From: Fibrobacter succinogenes
GTDB taxonomy: Bacteria > Fibrobacterota > Fibrobacteria > Fibrobacterales > Fibrobacteraceae
Direction of reading: 5' to 3'
DNA length: 64,000 nucleotides
Assembly: GCA_902756345.1 (NCBI GenBank)
Contig: CACVQR010000004.1
Location: 1 to 64,000, forward strand
Shown: positions 6,534-63,906 of the stretch, one piece after another
Layout: each line of letters begins with the position of its first letter
Position numbering within the stretch: the stretch's first letter is position 1
Notes under the pieces: model-generated
The model's database searches: none
What the model saw: only the letters and a program-made list of their open reading frames with translations
Told to the model about the DNA's origin: nothing
Position numbers and translations under genes: made by a program

Positions 6534-7034
6534 AGGGGGGACGAATCCCCCTGCTTGCAGCCCCGGCTTATGCGCATGGCCTTCGCGATGTTGTTACCCG
6601 CTCACTATCACGGAAAATTCCGTGACTCGTTCGCTTGCTAACAACATTCGCTTCGGCTTGCACGTCATTGCGAGGAGCAAAACGACGAAGCAATCCATAG
6701 CCGGGTCTTCCAGCACCCCCTCGAACGGGCGCTCAATCGCCGCGCCCATAACGCCCTGGCTCTAATCAGGCCACCGCTAATTTGTCATGCCCGACTTGTT
6801 CGGGCATCTCCTTTTCCCATCCGAGAAAAATGCTTAGCAGGTAGCGCTCCGGCTCAGCCTGCTCCGCACGCGGACACATTACGGCCTTCGGCCTCTAATG
6901 TTCGCTCAACGACACATTTTCTTCCGCCTTAGGGCATTCATTTCCGGTTGTCTTGCCGCACTTGATGCGGCACCTCCTTTCGCCGTCGCTTTTCCTTAGA
7001 CATAGGTTCTCCTACCAAGTTAAAAGTTTGCCAA
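6534..7034. repeat. Gene desert packed with short palindromes
   Basis: I see no gene here. Recognisable pieces are GGGGGG...CCCCC near 6535-6551, CACGGAAAATTCCGTG near 6612, the widespread repeat core TCATTGCGAGGAGC...ACGACGAAGCAATCC near 6665-6697, TGCCCGACTTGTTCGGGCA near 6787-6806, GGCCTTCGGCC near 6882 and TTGCCGCACTTGATGCGGCA near 6952. It looks like a sink of intergenic repeats next to the triple element at 6281-6533. Confidence 0.6.
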
Positions 7035-7088
7035 GTGTGCACCCCTGCGCACACTCTTTTTAATTGTTATGTTTGTGATTTTAAGGGA

Positions 7089-12393: not shown

Positions 12394-12401
12394 GTAATAT
12401 A
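12394..12401 (-). promoter_or_regulatory. -7-like box TATATTAC, 4 nt before a start codon
   Basis: Weak match to TAnnTTTG, read on the minus strand. Its position implies transcription starting at or near the ATG at 12389. Confidence 0.25.
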
Positions 12402-12463
12402 GTAAATAGTAGAAAGTAGACAGTAGACAGTAGGCAGTAGGAAGTAGACGGTAGGAAGTAGAC
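12401..12463. repeat. Heptamer array, AGTAGAC type (9 units)
   Basis: Nine gap-free 7-bp units of pattern AGTAGNM (AGTAAAT, AGTAGAA, AGTAGAC, AGTAGGC, AGTAGGA and so on) fill the space between the zinc-ribbon gene and the stop of the DMT transporter gene. Confidence 0.85.
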
Positions 12464-26652: not shown

Positions 26653-26687
26653 ATGTGTGATGTGTAATGTGTGATGTGGAATGAGAG
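26653..26687. repeat. Heptamer array, ATGTGTG type (5 units)
   Basis: ATGTGTG, ATGTGTA, ATGTGTG, ATGTGGA, ATGAGAG in continuous 7-bp phase, between two divergent genes and hence in their promoter region, unlike most other arrays here. Confidence 0.75.
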
Positions 26688-29663: not shown

Positions 29664-29692
29664 AATCTCCCTTAACAAGCACTTATTTTTCA

Positions 29693-29724
29693 CTGTCTAC
29701 TGTCTACTGCCTACTGCCTACTTT
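29693..29724. repeat. Heptamer array, GTCTACT type (about 4.5 units)
   Basis: CACT, then GTCTACT twice and GCCTACT twice: the reverse complement of the AGTAGAC array at 12401-12463, 17 kb away. It lies between two divergent genes, just upstream of the TATATTTG box at 29729. Confidence 0.8.
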
Positions 29725-30391: not shown

Positions 30392-33058
30392 ATGAATTAC
30401 AAAGACTTAGCACTCGCCGAAGAAGAAGGCAAACTGGAAGCCGCGATAGCGGCTTCTCGCAATTTATTGATTGAAGCGCCCACCGGCTCGGGCAAGTCGC
30501 TGTTCATCCCCTACTTTTTAAGCAAGCATTGCAAAGGCCGCGTCGTCGTACTGCAGCCCCGCCGCATTGCGGCGCTCGCACTCGCACAGTTCTCGGCAAA
30601 ACTCCACGGAGAGCCCTGCGGCAAGACCGTCGGCTACCAGTTCAGGCAAGACAGCTGCAAAAGCGCAGACACGCGCATTCTCTTTCAGACCTACGGTAAC
30701 TTTCTGCAAGAGCTCTTGCACGGCAAACTGGACGCCGACTGGATTGTGTTCGACGAATACCACGAACGCAAAGCTGACATGGACTTGTTGTTCGCGTATT
30801 TTAGACGAGAGAACGCTCGCAAGCTCGCTACAGACGAGAGACGAGAGGGACCGCGTGTGAGCCAGAGCGACCAAGCGGAAGCTGGTCGTGAAGGCGAGAG
30901 TGAGGCGATATCACATTGCTTTAGTAACAATAGAGCCGAACGGCCTCGTATCGCAGTAATGTCGGCGGCGTTGAACCGTTCCGAACTCGAAACGGTTCTC
31001 GGCGTCAAGTGTCTGAGTCTCGGTCACCCGCTCTACCCCGTGCAAATTATCAACCAGACGCCTGCCACGGGGAATTCGCTTGTTTCGGGCGTTGGACTTG
31101 ACGCCGAAGTGGTGCGGGCGCTCCGCACACTTTACCGCAACAACATCTGGCAGACCACGCTGGTATTCTTACCGGGCAAAGCCGAAATCGCCCGCTGCCA
31201 CACCGCCGCCGCCGAAGCACTCGGCAACAACTGCGCCGAATTCCTGGAACTCTACGGTGGCCAAGACCGCGAAACGCAAGACCGCATCTTCGAAGTCACC
31301 GAACGCCCGCGCGTGATTTTCACGACAAACATCGCCGAAACATCCATCACCGTTCCAAACGTCACGGGCGTTGTCGATAGCGGTATCGAACGTGTAAGCA
31401 TCTACGACGACAGCGAAAAGGTGAACGTCCTGCGCACGCTTCCCATTTCGATGCAGAATGCAATCCAGCGCAGCGGCCGTAGCGGCCGTACGCAAAACGG
31501 TTGCGCCATTCGCCTCTGGAGCGAAGAATCCGAAAAGCGCATGCCTCAAGGAATCGTGCCCGAAGTCTTGCAAATCGAGCCCTCGGAATTGATTCTGCAG
31601 AAAGCGGCGTTAGAGGATCTCGGCGAGGAGAGGAGATCCCGGATCAAGTCCGGGATGACAGATGGCATAGTACTTCCGACGGCGATTCCGGAAGCCCGCG
31701 AAAAGACGGCGACAGCACTCCTTGAAAATTTCGGGATGCTTCAGGACGGCGCCATCACCGAACTTGGCCTCAAGGCAATCCGCACGCCCGTTTCCAGCAT
31801 TCCGCTCGCGCTGCTCCTTGCATCGGCAAAAAACAAAGAAGACCTTCCCGACTTGCTCCTCGCCGCGCTCGCCTGGATTCATTCCGGCACCGAATTCTTG
31901 CAGAAGTCCAAAGTCGCCTACGACATTCTGACTCTCGCAAGCGACACGTTATCTAAAAGCCGCGACATTCCCCGCGAAGTCAGCTTTACGCTCCGACAGC
32001 TCCGCGACTACCGCGAAAAAATTGCAAGCCCCACACCCCAAAGGTGCGAAGCACCGACCTCAGACCTCATAGCGCATAGCCTTCTTAAGGCTTTCCCGGA
32101 CAGGCTCGCTACTCCGAGCGGCAACGCCTATAAGCTCGCCAACCAGAACGTGATTCGCCTGCAAGTTGCAGAACCGCCTTATGCGATTCTCGCCCTCAGC
32201 ATGCTCCGTACCGGCGGCGGTAGCAAATCGGAACTTAAAGTTAATTTATACGCACCTATCGCCAAGGAACTTCTCGGCGGCGAAAGTGCCAAGACCCGCT
32301 ACGAACTCTTGTGGCGCAGCGGTCAAGAAAGATTCATCGGTGTCGAAATCAGCGAATCCGAAAACGCCGACGGCTCCACTACCGAACTTTCCCGCAAAGA
32401 AATCCTCACACAAGAAGCTTCGCCTAAAGTTCTTGAAGAACTCAAGAAGCTTACCGTTGATGCCTGGCGCGAAAAAATCGAGAAAGAAAACTGGAGCGGC
32501 AAGTTCCTGACCGAAGCCGTGCAAACGCAGCTCATCAAAATGCGTCTTGCAGCCAAGCTCTATCCGGAATACGGCCTTCCCGAATTCAACGAAGAAGACA
32601 TGGAACTCATCTTCGATGAATTCGCAGAAGGCAAGTTCCTGCTCCGCGACATAAACGAAGACCGTTATAGGAACATTGTCGAAGATTACTTTGGCAAGTC
32701 CATGCTGCAATGGCTAGGCAAGACATTCCCCGACCACTACGTGCTCCCCAACGGCAAACGCGCCCGCTACAGCTATCAAGAAGTCGCTGTCAGTGACGAC
32801 GGAAAATCTGTGCAAAGCATCGAAGGCGTCCTCGTCGAAATTTCGGCCCGCATCGAAGACTTGATGCAGCTCCGCGGCGAGCACAGAATCGCCGACGGCA
32901 AATTAAAAGTCCGGTACGACATTCTGGCACCGAACTTCCGGACGATTCAAAAGACATGGGACTTGACCGGATTCTGGCAAAACACTTATGCCGAAGTCCG
33001 CAAGGAGCTGCGCGGTCGCTACCCCAAGCATCCCTGGCCCGAGAGGATTGAGCAATGA
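30392..33058 (+). CDS. hrpB: ATP-dependent helicase HrpB, with repeat-derived insertions
   Basis: 888 residues, a DExH-box helicase. Walker A 'APTGSGKS' at about 29-36, the DExH motif 'DEYH' near 119-122, 'VMSAALN' (motif III) near 190, 'TNIAETSITVPNVTGVVDSG' near 312 and 'QRSGRSGR' (motif VI) near 362; the C-terminal part is HrpB-like ('YPKHPWPE' near the end). Three in-frame repeat insertions interrupt it: residues about 137-186, 412-425 and 550-565. All motifs stay intact, so the enzyme is probably functional. The start lies in repeat sequence without a Shine-Dalgarno. HrpB's cellular role is poorly defined in bacteria. Confidence 0.9.
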   Translation: MNYKDLALAEEEGKLEAAIAASRNLLIEAPTGSGKSLFIPYFLSKHCKGRVVVLQPRRIAALALAQFSAKLHGEPCGKTVGYQFRQDSCKSADTRILFQTYGNFLQELLHGKLDADWIVFDEYHERKADMDLLFAYFRRENARKLATDERREGPRVSQSDQAEAGREGESEAISHCFSNNRAERPRIAVMSAALNRSELETVLGVKCLSLGHPLYPVQIINQTPATGNSLVSGVGLDAEVVRALRTLYRNNIWQTTLVFLPGKAEIARCHTAAAEALGNNCAEFLELYGGQDRETQDRIFEVTERPRVIFTTNIAETSITVPNVTGVVDSGIERVSIYDDSEKVNVLRTLPISMQNAIQRSGRSGRTQNGCAIRLWSEESEKRMPQGIVPEVLQIEPSELILQKAALEDLGEERRSRIKSGMTDGIVLPTAIPEAREKTATALLENFGMLQDGAITELGLKAIRTPVSSIPLALLLASAKNKEDLPDLLLAALAWIHSGTEFLQKSKVAYDILTLASDTLSKSRDIPREVSFTLRQLRDYREKIASPTPQRCEAPTSDLIAHSLLKAFPDRLATPSGNAYKLANQNVIRLQVAEPPYAILALSMLRTGGGSKSELKVNLYAPIAKELLGGESAKTRYELLWRSGQERFIGVEISESENADGSTTELSRKEILTQEASPKVLEELKKLTVDAWREKIEKENWSGKFLTEAVQTQLIKMRLAAKLYPEYGLPEFNEEDMELIFDEFAEGKFLLRDINEDRYRNIVEDYFGKSMLQWLGKTFPDHYVLPNGKRARYSYQEVAVSDDGKSVQSIEGVLVEISARIEDLMQLRGEHRIADGKLKVRYDILAPNFRTIQKTWDLTGFWQNTYAEVRKELRGRYPKHPWPERIEQ
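30801..30952 (+). repeat. Composite repeat inserted in frame in hrpB
   Basis: First part (30801-30849) is a 49-bp element shared with the aminotransferase gene at 63434-63482, encoding RRENARKLATDERREG. Second part (about 30855-30951) is the modular GTGAGCC/GATATCA element with a CGACCA/TGGTCG first stem and an ATTG/CAAT second stem, ending in GAGCCGAACGGCCT and TATCGC. Together they add about 48 residues between the DExH motif and motif III. Confidence 0.9.
31636..31656 (+). repeat. REP-like palindrome inserted in hrpB
   Basis: ATCCCGGA (31636-31643) mirrors TCCGGGAT (31649-31656), followed by GACAGATGGC. CCCGGATCAAGTCCGGG-type palindromes are common intergenic repeats. Here it is translated as 'RRSRIKSGMTDGI'. 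Confidence 0.75.
32043..32080 (+). repeat. Hairpin plus GACCTCA heptamers inserted in hrpB
   Basis: GGTGC-GAA-GCACC (32043-32055), then GACCTCA, GACCTCA, TAGCGCA, TAGC in 7-bp phase. Same design as the repeats flanking hrpB. Translated as 'RCEAPTSDLIAHS'. Confidence 0.75.
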
Positions 33059-38736: not shown

Positions 38737-38818
38737 AAGTAGGAAGTGAGAAGTAGGAAGTACGAAGTTATATTCAAGAAAAACTGTCTACTTCCTACCG
38801 TCTACAGTCTACTTTCTA
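38737..38818. repeat. Paired inverted heptamer arrays
   Basis: Five AAGTAGG-type units (38737-38771), a short spacer and five CTTCCTA/CTGTCTA-type units (38784-38818) in opposite orientation, so the two halves can pair into one long imperfect stem. The second half contains the rsmD stop codon (TAG, 38809-38811). Confidence 0.8.
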
Positions 38819-42887: not shown

Positions 42888-42969
42888 AATTCGGATTCCA
42901 GATTTCGAAGTTCGGAATTATAATTTTCAGCTTAAAAATCCGAATTCTGAATTCCGCATTCCGAGTTAA
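42888..42969. repeat. Paired heptamer arrays, ATTCGGA / TCCGAAT type
   Basis: AATTCGG, ATTCCAG, ATTTCGA, AGTTCGG, AATTATA (42888-42922), a spacer, then TCCGAAT, TCTGAAT, TCCGCAT, TCCGAGT (42939-42966) in opposite sense. The right edge touches the TAA stop of the helicase gene (42966-42968). Confidence 0.7.
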
Positions 42970-49209: not shown

Positions 49210-49292
49210 GTTGGTAGAGCTTAGTTGGTAGAACTTAGACATTTTCTAAGTTCTAAGCTCTAAGTTCTAAATTCTAAATACTACATTACCCA
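49210..49292. repeat. Heptamer array, GAACTTA / TCTAAGT type (about 12 units)
   Basis: GTTGGTA, GAGCTTA, GTTGGTA, GAACTTA, GACATTT, then TCTAAGT-type units continue in unbroken 7-bp phase to within 2 bp of the ATG at 49295. The halves are inverted (GAACTTAGA versus TCTAAGTTC), giving a long imperfect hairpin. It fills the gap between two plus-strand genes. Same family as 5156-5190. Confidence 0.85.
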
Positions 49293-62622: not shown

Positions 62623-63906
62623 TTACAATTCTTTCATTCGCTGCACCGCATCCTTGAAAATCGCGGGCTCTTGCAGTAAGCTGATTACCACCCAGCCGTC
62701 TTCGTCGAAATCGAAGAAGAACCCGGGTTGCACCAGCACATGCTTTTCGCGGAGCAAACGGAGCGTGAGTTCCTCGTCGTCTTCGCCGAGGCGAACAACC
62801 GCATACCAACCGCCGAGAACCTCGGGGCAGTACTTGGAGGGGAAAGCTTCGCGGAGCGTCTGCCAGTTGGCAAGCAAGCGTTCCTTGACGCGCGATTCGT
62901 AAGCGGCGGCCGCGGGCAACAGCGACGTACCCAGCGCCTGCGCCGGAGCAGATACACTCAAGTAGGCATCTTCCACGAATTCGAGCGCCGCGCGAATTTC
63001 TTCGAAGCGTTCGCGGGGCGCGTAAAAAGCCATCCAGCCGAGCTTGAGCTGCGGGGAACCCACTGCCTTGCTTAAGCCGTTCAGCCAGAAGATGGGGCAC
63101 TTGGGACCGTCTTCCGGGAGGTTGATGAAGTCGTTACCGCCCGCATCCCATAGATTATTTGATTTTTCCTCAATGGATTGCTTCCCCCCTTCGGGGGTCG
63201 CAATGACGTATTGCCAAGTACGCTTTACTTTATCCGTAAGCGCATAATCGCCGAAGACTTCGTCCACCACGAGAATCATGTCGTTTTCTTCGCAGAAACG
63301 GACCGCCGCATTCCACTCTTCGCGCGACACGCAATGCCCGGTCGGGTTATGCGGCGAAACCAGCAGCAGGATTTTCGCTTTCTCGGGAGCCGCCAACAAG
63401 CTGTCGGAATCGAGAACGAATCTAAACGCCGCGCCCTCTCGTCTCTCGTCTGTAGCGAGTTTACGAGCGTTCTCTCGTCTAAGTTGCAGAAAATAGGGCG
63501 CACATTCCAAATGTTCGAGCTGTGCAAGCGTATCGAGCAGCGGGTAGCCGGGCATCGGCGTCAGAATCACATCGCCCGGATCGCAGAATGTCTTGAACAA
63601 AACCGAATACGCTTCGCTGGTGCTCGCCGTAAGGATAATCTGACCAGCCGTAAAATTGCCCCCGCGTTCGCGGTAATACTCCACCACCGCTTCGCGGGCC
63701 GACTTCCAACCCGCCGCATCCGGATTCCAGCAACCAAAAGACTCGCGGCCTTCATCGACAGCGGCATCCAGCTCCACCGGCAGTCCCGCCTTCACAGGCG
63801 AAGAAACCGTCATGTCAATAAACGGCGCTGACTCAGCCTTCGCACGCTCCAATTCGGCAAAGAACGGCGATGGCGAAAGATCTTTAGGCAAGCGGGAAGA
63901 AAGCAT
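62623..63906 (-). CDS. Class I/II PLP aminotransferase with in-frame repeat insertion
   Basis: 427 residues. Seen: 'DMTVSSPVKAGLPV', 'ILTASTSEAYSVLFKTFCDPGDVILTPMPGYPLLDTLAQLEHLE', 'LLLVSPHNPTGHCVSREEW', 'LVVDEVFGDYAL' and 'FWLNGLSKAVGSPQLKLGWMAF' (PLP Lys in LSK). It fits the aspartate/alanine aminotransferase group; substrate uncertain. Residues about 142-158 (RRENARKLATDERREG) are a 49-bp repeat also present in hrpB, placed between the small-domain strand 'PYFLQL' and 'FRFVLDSDSLL', a likely surface loop. The start overlaps the stop of the upstream gene (TAATG). Confidence 0.9.
   Translation of the reverse strand: MLSSRLPKDLSPSPFFAELERAKAESAPFIDMTVSSPVKAGLPVELDAAVDEGRESFGCWNPDAAGWKSAREAVVEYYRERGGNFTAGQIILTASTSEAYSVLFKTFCDPGDVILTPMPGYPLLDTLAQLEHLECAPYFLQLRRENARKLATDERREGAAFRFVLDSDSLLAAPEKAKILLLVSPHNPTGHCVSREEWNAAVRFCEENDMILVVDEVFGDYALTDKVKRTWQYVIATPEGGKQSIEEKSNNLWDAGGNDFINLPEDGPKCPIFWLNGLSKAVGSPQLKLGWMAFYAPRERFEEIRAALEFVEDAYLSVSAPAQALGTSLLPAAAAYESRVKERLLANWQTLREAFPSKYCPEVLGGWYAVVRLGEDDEELTLRLLREKHVLVQPGFFFDFDEDGWVVISLLQEPAIFKDAVQRMKEL
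63434..63482 (-). repeat. 49-bp element inserted in frame in an aminotransferase gene
   Basis: Minus-strand copy of the element at 30801-30849, with two differences (CGC/CGT and AAG/AAA), both synonymous in the shared reading frame. It contains AGACGAG three times. It lacks the modular GTGAGCC part that follows in hrpB. Confidence 0.9.

Follow-up and report, generated by a model that had tools for sequence, protein, structure and literature searches.

Why do two unrelated enzymes carry the same 16-residue peptide? The window, the whole stretch of 64,000 nucleotides analysed here (C4:1-64000 of a 3.36 Mb Fibrobacter genome), holds two copies of a 49-bp repeat, one inside hrpB and one inside an aminotransferase gene (Table 1). 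The original prediction described one repeat that is read in a single frame in both genes and differs only synonymously. Coordinates, strands and translations agree with this description: 2 of 49 bases differ (CGC/CGT and AAG/AAA), both changes are synonymous, and each copy is translated as RRENARKLATDERREG in the frame of its host gene. The HrpB insert follows residue 137, a short way past the DEYH motif, at the point where the protein ceases to align with the solved E. coli HrpB. The aminotransferase insert follows residue 142.

Table 1. Repeat copies, host genes and neighbouring repeats in the window
Feature	Position	Strand	Reading or best model
Element copy in hrpB, CTCG-CAAG-CTCG type	30801..30849	+	RRENARKLATDERREG
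Element copy in aminotransferase gene, CTCG-TAAA-CTCG type	63434..63482	-	RRENARKLATDERREG, same frame
Host gene hrpB (DEAH helicase, HrpB_C)	30392..33058	+	TIGR01970
Host gene, PLP-dependent class I/II aminotransferase	62623..63906	-	PF00155
Remainder of hrpB hot-spot segment	30850..30945	+	PRVSQSDQAEAGREGESEAISHCFSNNRAERPR
Aminotransferase second hot spot, other dispersed repeat	63175..63205	-	CATTGCGA..GAAGCAATCC

The repeat family and its hairpin

The pair belongs to a family. The window's own genome holds eight recognisable copies by similarity and nine by a strict pattern, plus further diverged copies, and several congeners hold 22 or more each. The strict pattern was run on 121 genomes of the phylum. 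It matches in 38 of the 49 that belong to the genus Fibrobacter and in one of the 18 from other genera of the family, G128, which has 49 copies; the other 54 have no match. Reversed as a control, the pattern matches nothing in any of the 121 genomes. Hence, given the copies in its own genome and in the congeners, the repeat goes beyond chance. Among the matches listed in a scan of a genome collection, all record titles name Fibrobacter or Fibrobacterales.

Copy number varies between genomes. G001, G019, G020 and G128 are rich in copies; G002, G011 and G061 have none. In G128 most copies have one of two stem types (GCAC and GGCC), whereas stems are mixed elsewhere, and a second genome of the same genus has no strict copy. 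Many of the G128 copies (L351-L380) lie close to contig ends. One further copy (L155, 189-226) sits on an IMG/VR contig classed as viral.

The consensus reads TTAGACGARAGAACG, then a middle segment of 5-19 nt, then CTACAGACGARAGACGARAG. The element thus consists of the heptad word GACGARA plus a hairpin, with heptads flanking the hairpin. In most copies the middle segment forms a four-pair stem with a three-base loop (mostly TNC) and a constant G-C closing. The sequence of the stem varies freely while its complementarity is kept: 98.8% of it is paired, 41 changes are two-sided (cells changed on both sides), and covariation is 0.68 compared to 0.13 after shuffling, with 0 of 500 shuffles reaching the observed score. 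The flanks look invariant in part by construction, because the search pattern fixes them; a relaxed search yields decayed copies and hairpin-free arrays. Copies of the CTCG-N4-CTCG type, the type in the window, do not form the four-pair stem when folded. The bases at which the two window copies differ mirror each other within the central tetranucleotide (CAAG to TAAA) and may be a paired change.

A complementary arm, CTYTCGTC, lies downstream of 37 of 145 copies and upstream of 2. One whole unit with this arm has a much more stable fold than its shuffled versions (z = -6.0). Some copies have the ends TTAGACGARAG / CTYTCGTCTAA, which are candidates for the terminal inverted repeats of a MITE. 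No Rfam family matches in the window at gathering score. At the orthologous stop codons of L049/L103, L042/L115 and L044/L134 the whole stem differs between species and is still complementary, as if the hairpin had been swapped as a unit.

Copies at stop codons and inside genes

Merging the 157 strict copies by orthologous place leaves 102 distinct sites: 84 intergenic, 14 genic in sense and 4 genic in antisense orientation, with genes called by a purpose-written simple codon-score caller rather than a published one. For 66 copies the upstream gene lies on the same strand, and 55 of them begin no more than 3 nt from the stop codon of that gene. Of the 66, 28 supply the stop through the TAG of the element itself, and another 27 start 0-3 nt beyond a stop. 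At the 3' ends of antisense genes, no copy out of 28 lies within 7 nt (Fisher 3e-15 against the sense copies). Truncation alone would produce about 7 TAG stops (half of the 14 internal sense sites in the two open frames), compared to the 28 observed. In several orthologue pairs the stop keeps its place where this element is absent. We conclude that this is a real, genus-level, stop-codon-associated hairpin repeat.

Copies inside genes have different lengths. Of the 18 genic sites, 16 have a middle segment of 9, 12 or 15 nt, but only 15 of the 84 intergenic sites do (Fisher 2e-8). This is the pattern that insertion followed by the loss of frame-breaking copies would leave. Besides the two genes in the window, hosts include a cobA-hemD fusion, an RlmL-like methyltransferase, an HrpA-like helicase, a Glu/Gln tRNA synthetase-like protein, RsgA and a CoaBC-like flavoprotein. 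The claim that a dispersed element enters protein genes in frame, as Rickettsia palindromic elements do in another phylum, is therefore supported by the length pattern and by the 14 sense sites among 102.

The claim of a preferred frame is not supported. The 14 sense sites use two frames in a ratio of 10:4, so their peptides differ (RRENARKLATDERRE or LDERTLASSLQTRDER), and four sites are antisense. The aminotransferase gene of G001 even carries two copies in two different frames, and the insert in the cobA-hemD fusion (L011/L153) is read in another frame as LDERTLASSLQTRDERD.

The original prediction also took the synonymous differences as a hint of selection on the peptide. If the peptide were functional and had spread as a protein module, the purely synonymous divergence of the window pair would make sense, and the insert should be conserved elsewhere. 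In nine aminotransferase orthologues, however, the insert has pS 0.105 and pN 0.057, while the 150 nt upstream have pS 0.546 and pN 0.027, giving pN/pS ratios of 0.54 in the insert and 0.05 in the flanking codons; part of the low pS in the insert is an ascertainment effect, as the comparison used only copies that pass the pattern. The changes include A>V, K>R, L>I, R>Q and E>K/T. For the cobA-hemD insert, pS/pN is 0.147/0.035 compared to 0.671/0.022 in the flank. Nothing here favours peptide selection. Together with the other frames, the antisense copies and the replacement or loss of the insert in sister species, these values make a functional peptide hardly credible. The original prediction had named, as evidence against itself, copies inside genes that use other frames and drift nonsynonymously; such copies do exist, although the number of genic sites (18) is modest. 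Most copies lie at gene ends and the window pair is among the few tolerated in frame, so the peptide that the two enzymes share is incidental to the DNA and not a product of selection.

The loops themselves are hot spots. After residue 142 of the aminotransferase, sister species carry KREKSS (nothing recognisable), KKKIPACAGMT, KNVILSGAKNP, VRDDKKES repeats and others. The hrpB loop shows a similar turnover, with unrelated repeats or none in sister species and hairpin-free GACGARA arrays at the same spot in other species. A unit related to the rest of the hrpB segment occurs twice at that spot in L245 and is missing in L227 and L229. At the other aminotransferase hot spot, where the window has a different repeat, the element is present a second time in G001 and G020, in another frame. 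Outgroup aminotransferase and HrpB proteins have no such insert at these loops. Across the orthologues of both genes (L225-L278), the loops gather unrelated in-frame repeats (IPACAGMT, VILSGAKNP, NVIASEAKQS, VRDDKKES, VRQAHQP..), in L274 more than 100 residues of repeats at one loop.

The heptad background

The element does not stand alone. In the intergenic DNA of G000, 7/14/21-bp periodicity reaches 0.300/0.293/0.294 compared to about 0.265, and every array with a period of 4 to 12 in 39 kb of this DNA has period 7. The words of these arrays include AGTAGGA, TAGAACT, ATGTGAA and TTCGGAA. Periodicity in G004 is similar, in G020 and G005 it is weaker, and in an outgroup there is none. With its GACGARA heptads and this lag-7 signal in G000 and G004, the repeat shows the tandem degenerate 7-bp units of STRR-like heptad DNA. 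Arrays tend to pair a G-rich arm on the left with a C-rich arm on the right that complements it (33 pairs; complement similarity 0.39 compared to 0.17 +/- 0.05 after shuffling).

At three pairs of orthologous stop codons (L090/L172, L097/L171 and L133/L182), one species has the GACGARA hairpin and the other an AGTAGGA array. Heptads of the form TAGNNNN in G128 frequently continue, in phase, into the element's TAGACGA. Given these array swaps, the in-phase heptads and the 7-bp periodicity, the 49-bp repeat is a single word family within a broader heptad system. The intergenic arrays of the window belong to this genus-wide system with complementary arms. Degenerate 7-bp arrays lie at 12399-12461, 26653-26683, 29692-29722, 38737-38768, 42936-42963 and 49244-49286, with the words AGTAGGA/TAGACAG, ATGTGTG, ACTGTCT, TCCGAAT and TTCTAAG.

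Two readings of the arrays were rejected. As a cassette of stops in all three frames, the heptads look promising (58% of G-rich arrays compared to 12% of random intergenic windows), but 46% persists after permuting heptad columns, so the stops come mostly from period 7. Telomerase-like end addition, suggested by G-rich arrays to the left and C-rich arrays to the right of intergenic regions, was dropped because a palindrome yields the same polarity.

Origin of the repeat and comparison with known systems

We think that the element is probably a non-autonomous, REP/MITE-like palindromic repeat of the Fibrobacteraceae, made of GACGARA heptads round an exchangeable hairpin, that spreads as DNA and encodes peptides only as a by-product. 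Such an element would spread with fixed ends, as its dispersed copies, patchy presence and near-uniform burst in G128 indirectly suggest. Since its 5' end, TTAG, contains TAG, a copy landing at a stop codon would spare the protein, and most surviving copies are found there. Inside genes, only frame-keeping lengths in loops that tolerate extra residues would survive, as the lengths and the hot-spot loops indicate, and the encoded peptide would be incidental. Copies would later be swapped for other repeats or be given new stems at the same spot, as seen at orthologous sites, perhaps through ectopic conversion or re-insertion. Mobility is likely. A clean empty site with a target duplication was not recovered at orthologous sites; the alternatives there are mostly occupied by a different repeat, so the transposition ends are putative. 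Many copies could also be explained by heptad duplication or slippage.

A rival explanation is replication slippage. In that case heptanucleotide satellite DNA would build up passively at gene ends, the hairpin would be one outcome and nothing would be mobile. The strong periodicity of G000, where all arrays have period 7, and the hairpin-free arrays at the hrpB spot fit this explanation. Yet slippage does not bring one exact hairpin sequence of 38-49 bp into unrelated genes, and 49 near-uniform copies in G128 with none in another genome of its genus are not what it would produce. We therefore consider a purely passive satellite unlikely.

A functional RNA element at the 3' end is a possibility that we take seriously, even if we doubt it. 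The repeat would be transcribed at the stop codon, its hairpin and purine heptads would act on the mRNA (stability, translation termination or a protein-binding site) and selection would keep it. Stop-codon anchoring is strand-specific, stem changes are compensatory, and the complementary arm, which lies almost always downstream, gives some loci a very stable fold. However, at the same stop codon sister species have no copy or unrelated words, and several congeners have no copies at all. Some copies are also followed by terminator-like hairpins with T runs, so the element is not itself the terminator. The most elaborate combination, in which a mobile hairpin element targets stop codons with its own stop, exchanges its hairpin as a unit, acts as a 3'-end RNA element throughout the genus and is sometimes read as protein inside genes, is offered very tentatively.

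REP elements are dispersed GTAG-type hairpins near gene 3' ends that are moved by RAYT. The Fibrobacter repeat shares the position, and its minus strand reads GTAG followed by a hairpin. A classical REP moved by RAYT is nevertheless highly improbable here. In REPs the stem is constant and the flanks vary, the reverse of what we observe. The window's genome has no match to the Y1 transposase (PF01797) or to reverse transcriptase (PF00078), and both were rejected as the copying enzyme for this reason and because neither tracks copy number. PF01797 has no match in the copy-bearing genomes G000, G003, G006, G010, G013 and G015; its matches in Fibrobacter are open frames of 157-165 aa. Cyanobacterial STRR heptanucleotide repeats are degenerate heptad arrays too, a likeness by description and not by sequence. 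STRR repeats are not known to carry the hairpin unit or to have the stop-codon position.

Rickettsia palindromic elements (RPEs) are short palindromic repeats that lie in frame inside unrelated housekeeping genes and are tolerated there (Ogata et al. 2000, as summarised in PMC10969869). The Fibrobacter repeat is likewise tolerated in frame inside unrelated genes, and likewise palindromic: its hairpin covaries, and the minority of copies with a complementary arm form a full palindrome. It is about one third as long, occurs in another phylum, has no fixed frame or conserved peptide and is mostly anchored at stops. Hence it acts like a palindromic element inside genes but fails the RPE test of a fixed frame and a conserved peptide.

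Among repeats of 5-11 nt, heptanucleotides form the most frequent class in most of the repeat-rich bacteria that have been surveyed, and slippage has been proposed as their source (PMC4679880, citing Mrazek 2007). TAACTGA heptamers of Beggiatoaceae, Cyanobacteria and Bacteroidetes are abundant intergenic direct repeats, and forward repeats contain stops in all three frames (PMC4679880). They resemble the Fibrobacter repeat as intergenic 7-bp units but consist of one fixed word, lie mostly just upstream of start codons and lack a hairpin unit. Geobacter metallireducens has 49 dispersed tandem-heptamer elements, some intergenic and others inside genes, where one gene may hold several (PMC2700814). 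These are dispersed heptamers as well; their word is GGACCGG, and the sections consulted report neither an exchangeable hairpin nor stop anchoring. The F. succinogenes S85 genome paper (PMC3079729) does not describe such repeats in its main text.

A phylum outside the Rickettsiales thus has short palindromic repeats built into housekeeping enzymes. Because many congeners are sequenced, insertion, tolerance and turnover can be traced site by site. Stop-codon anchoring and whole-stem swaps are testable and bear on the evolution of bacterial gene 3' ends. Annotators should be aware that Fibrobacter proteins hold repeat-derived linkers. In L075 (about 6960-7040), and also in L041 and L077, CTCTCGT heptad arrays are seemingly read as the hydrophobic core of a signal peptide (e.g. 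LSSFVFRLSSLVLLAAC in L075).
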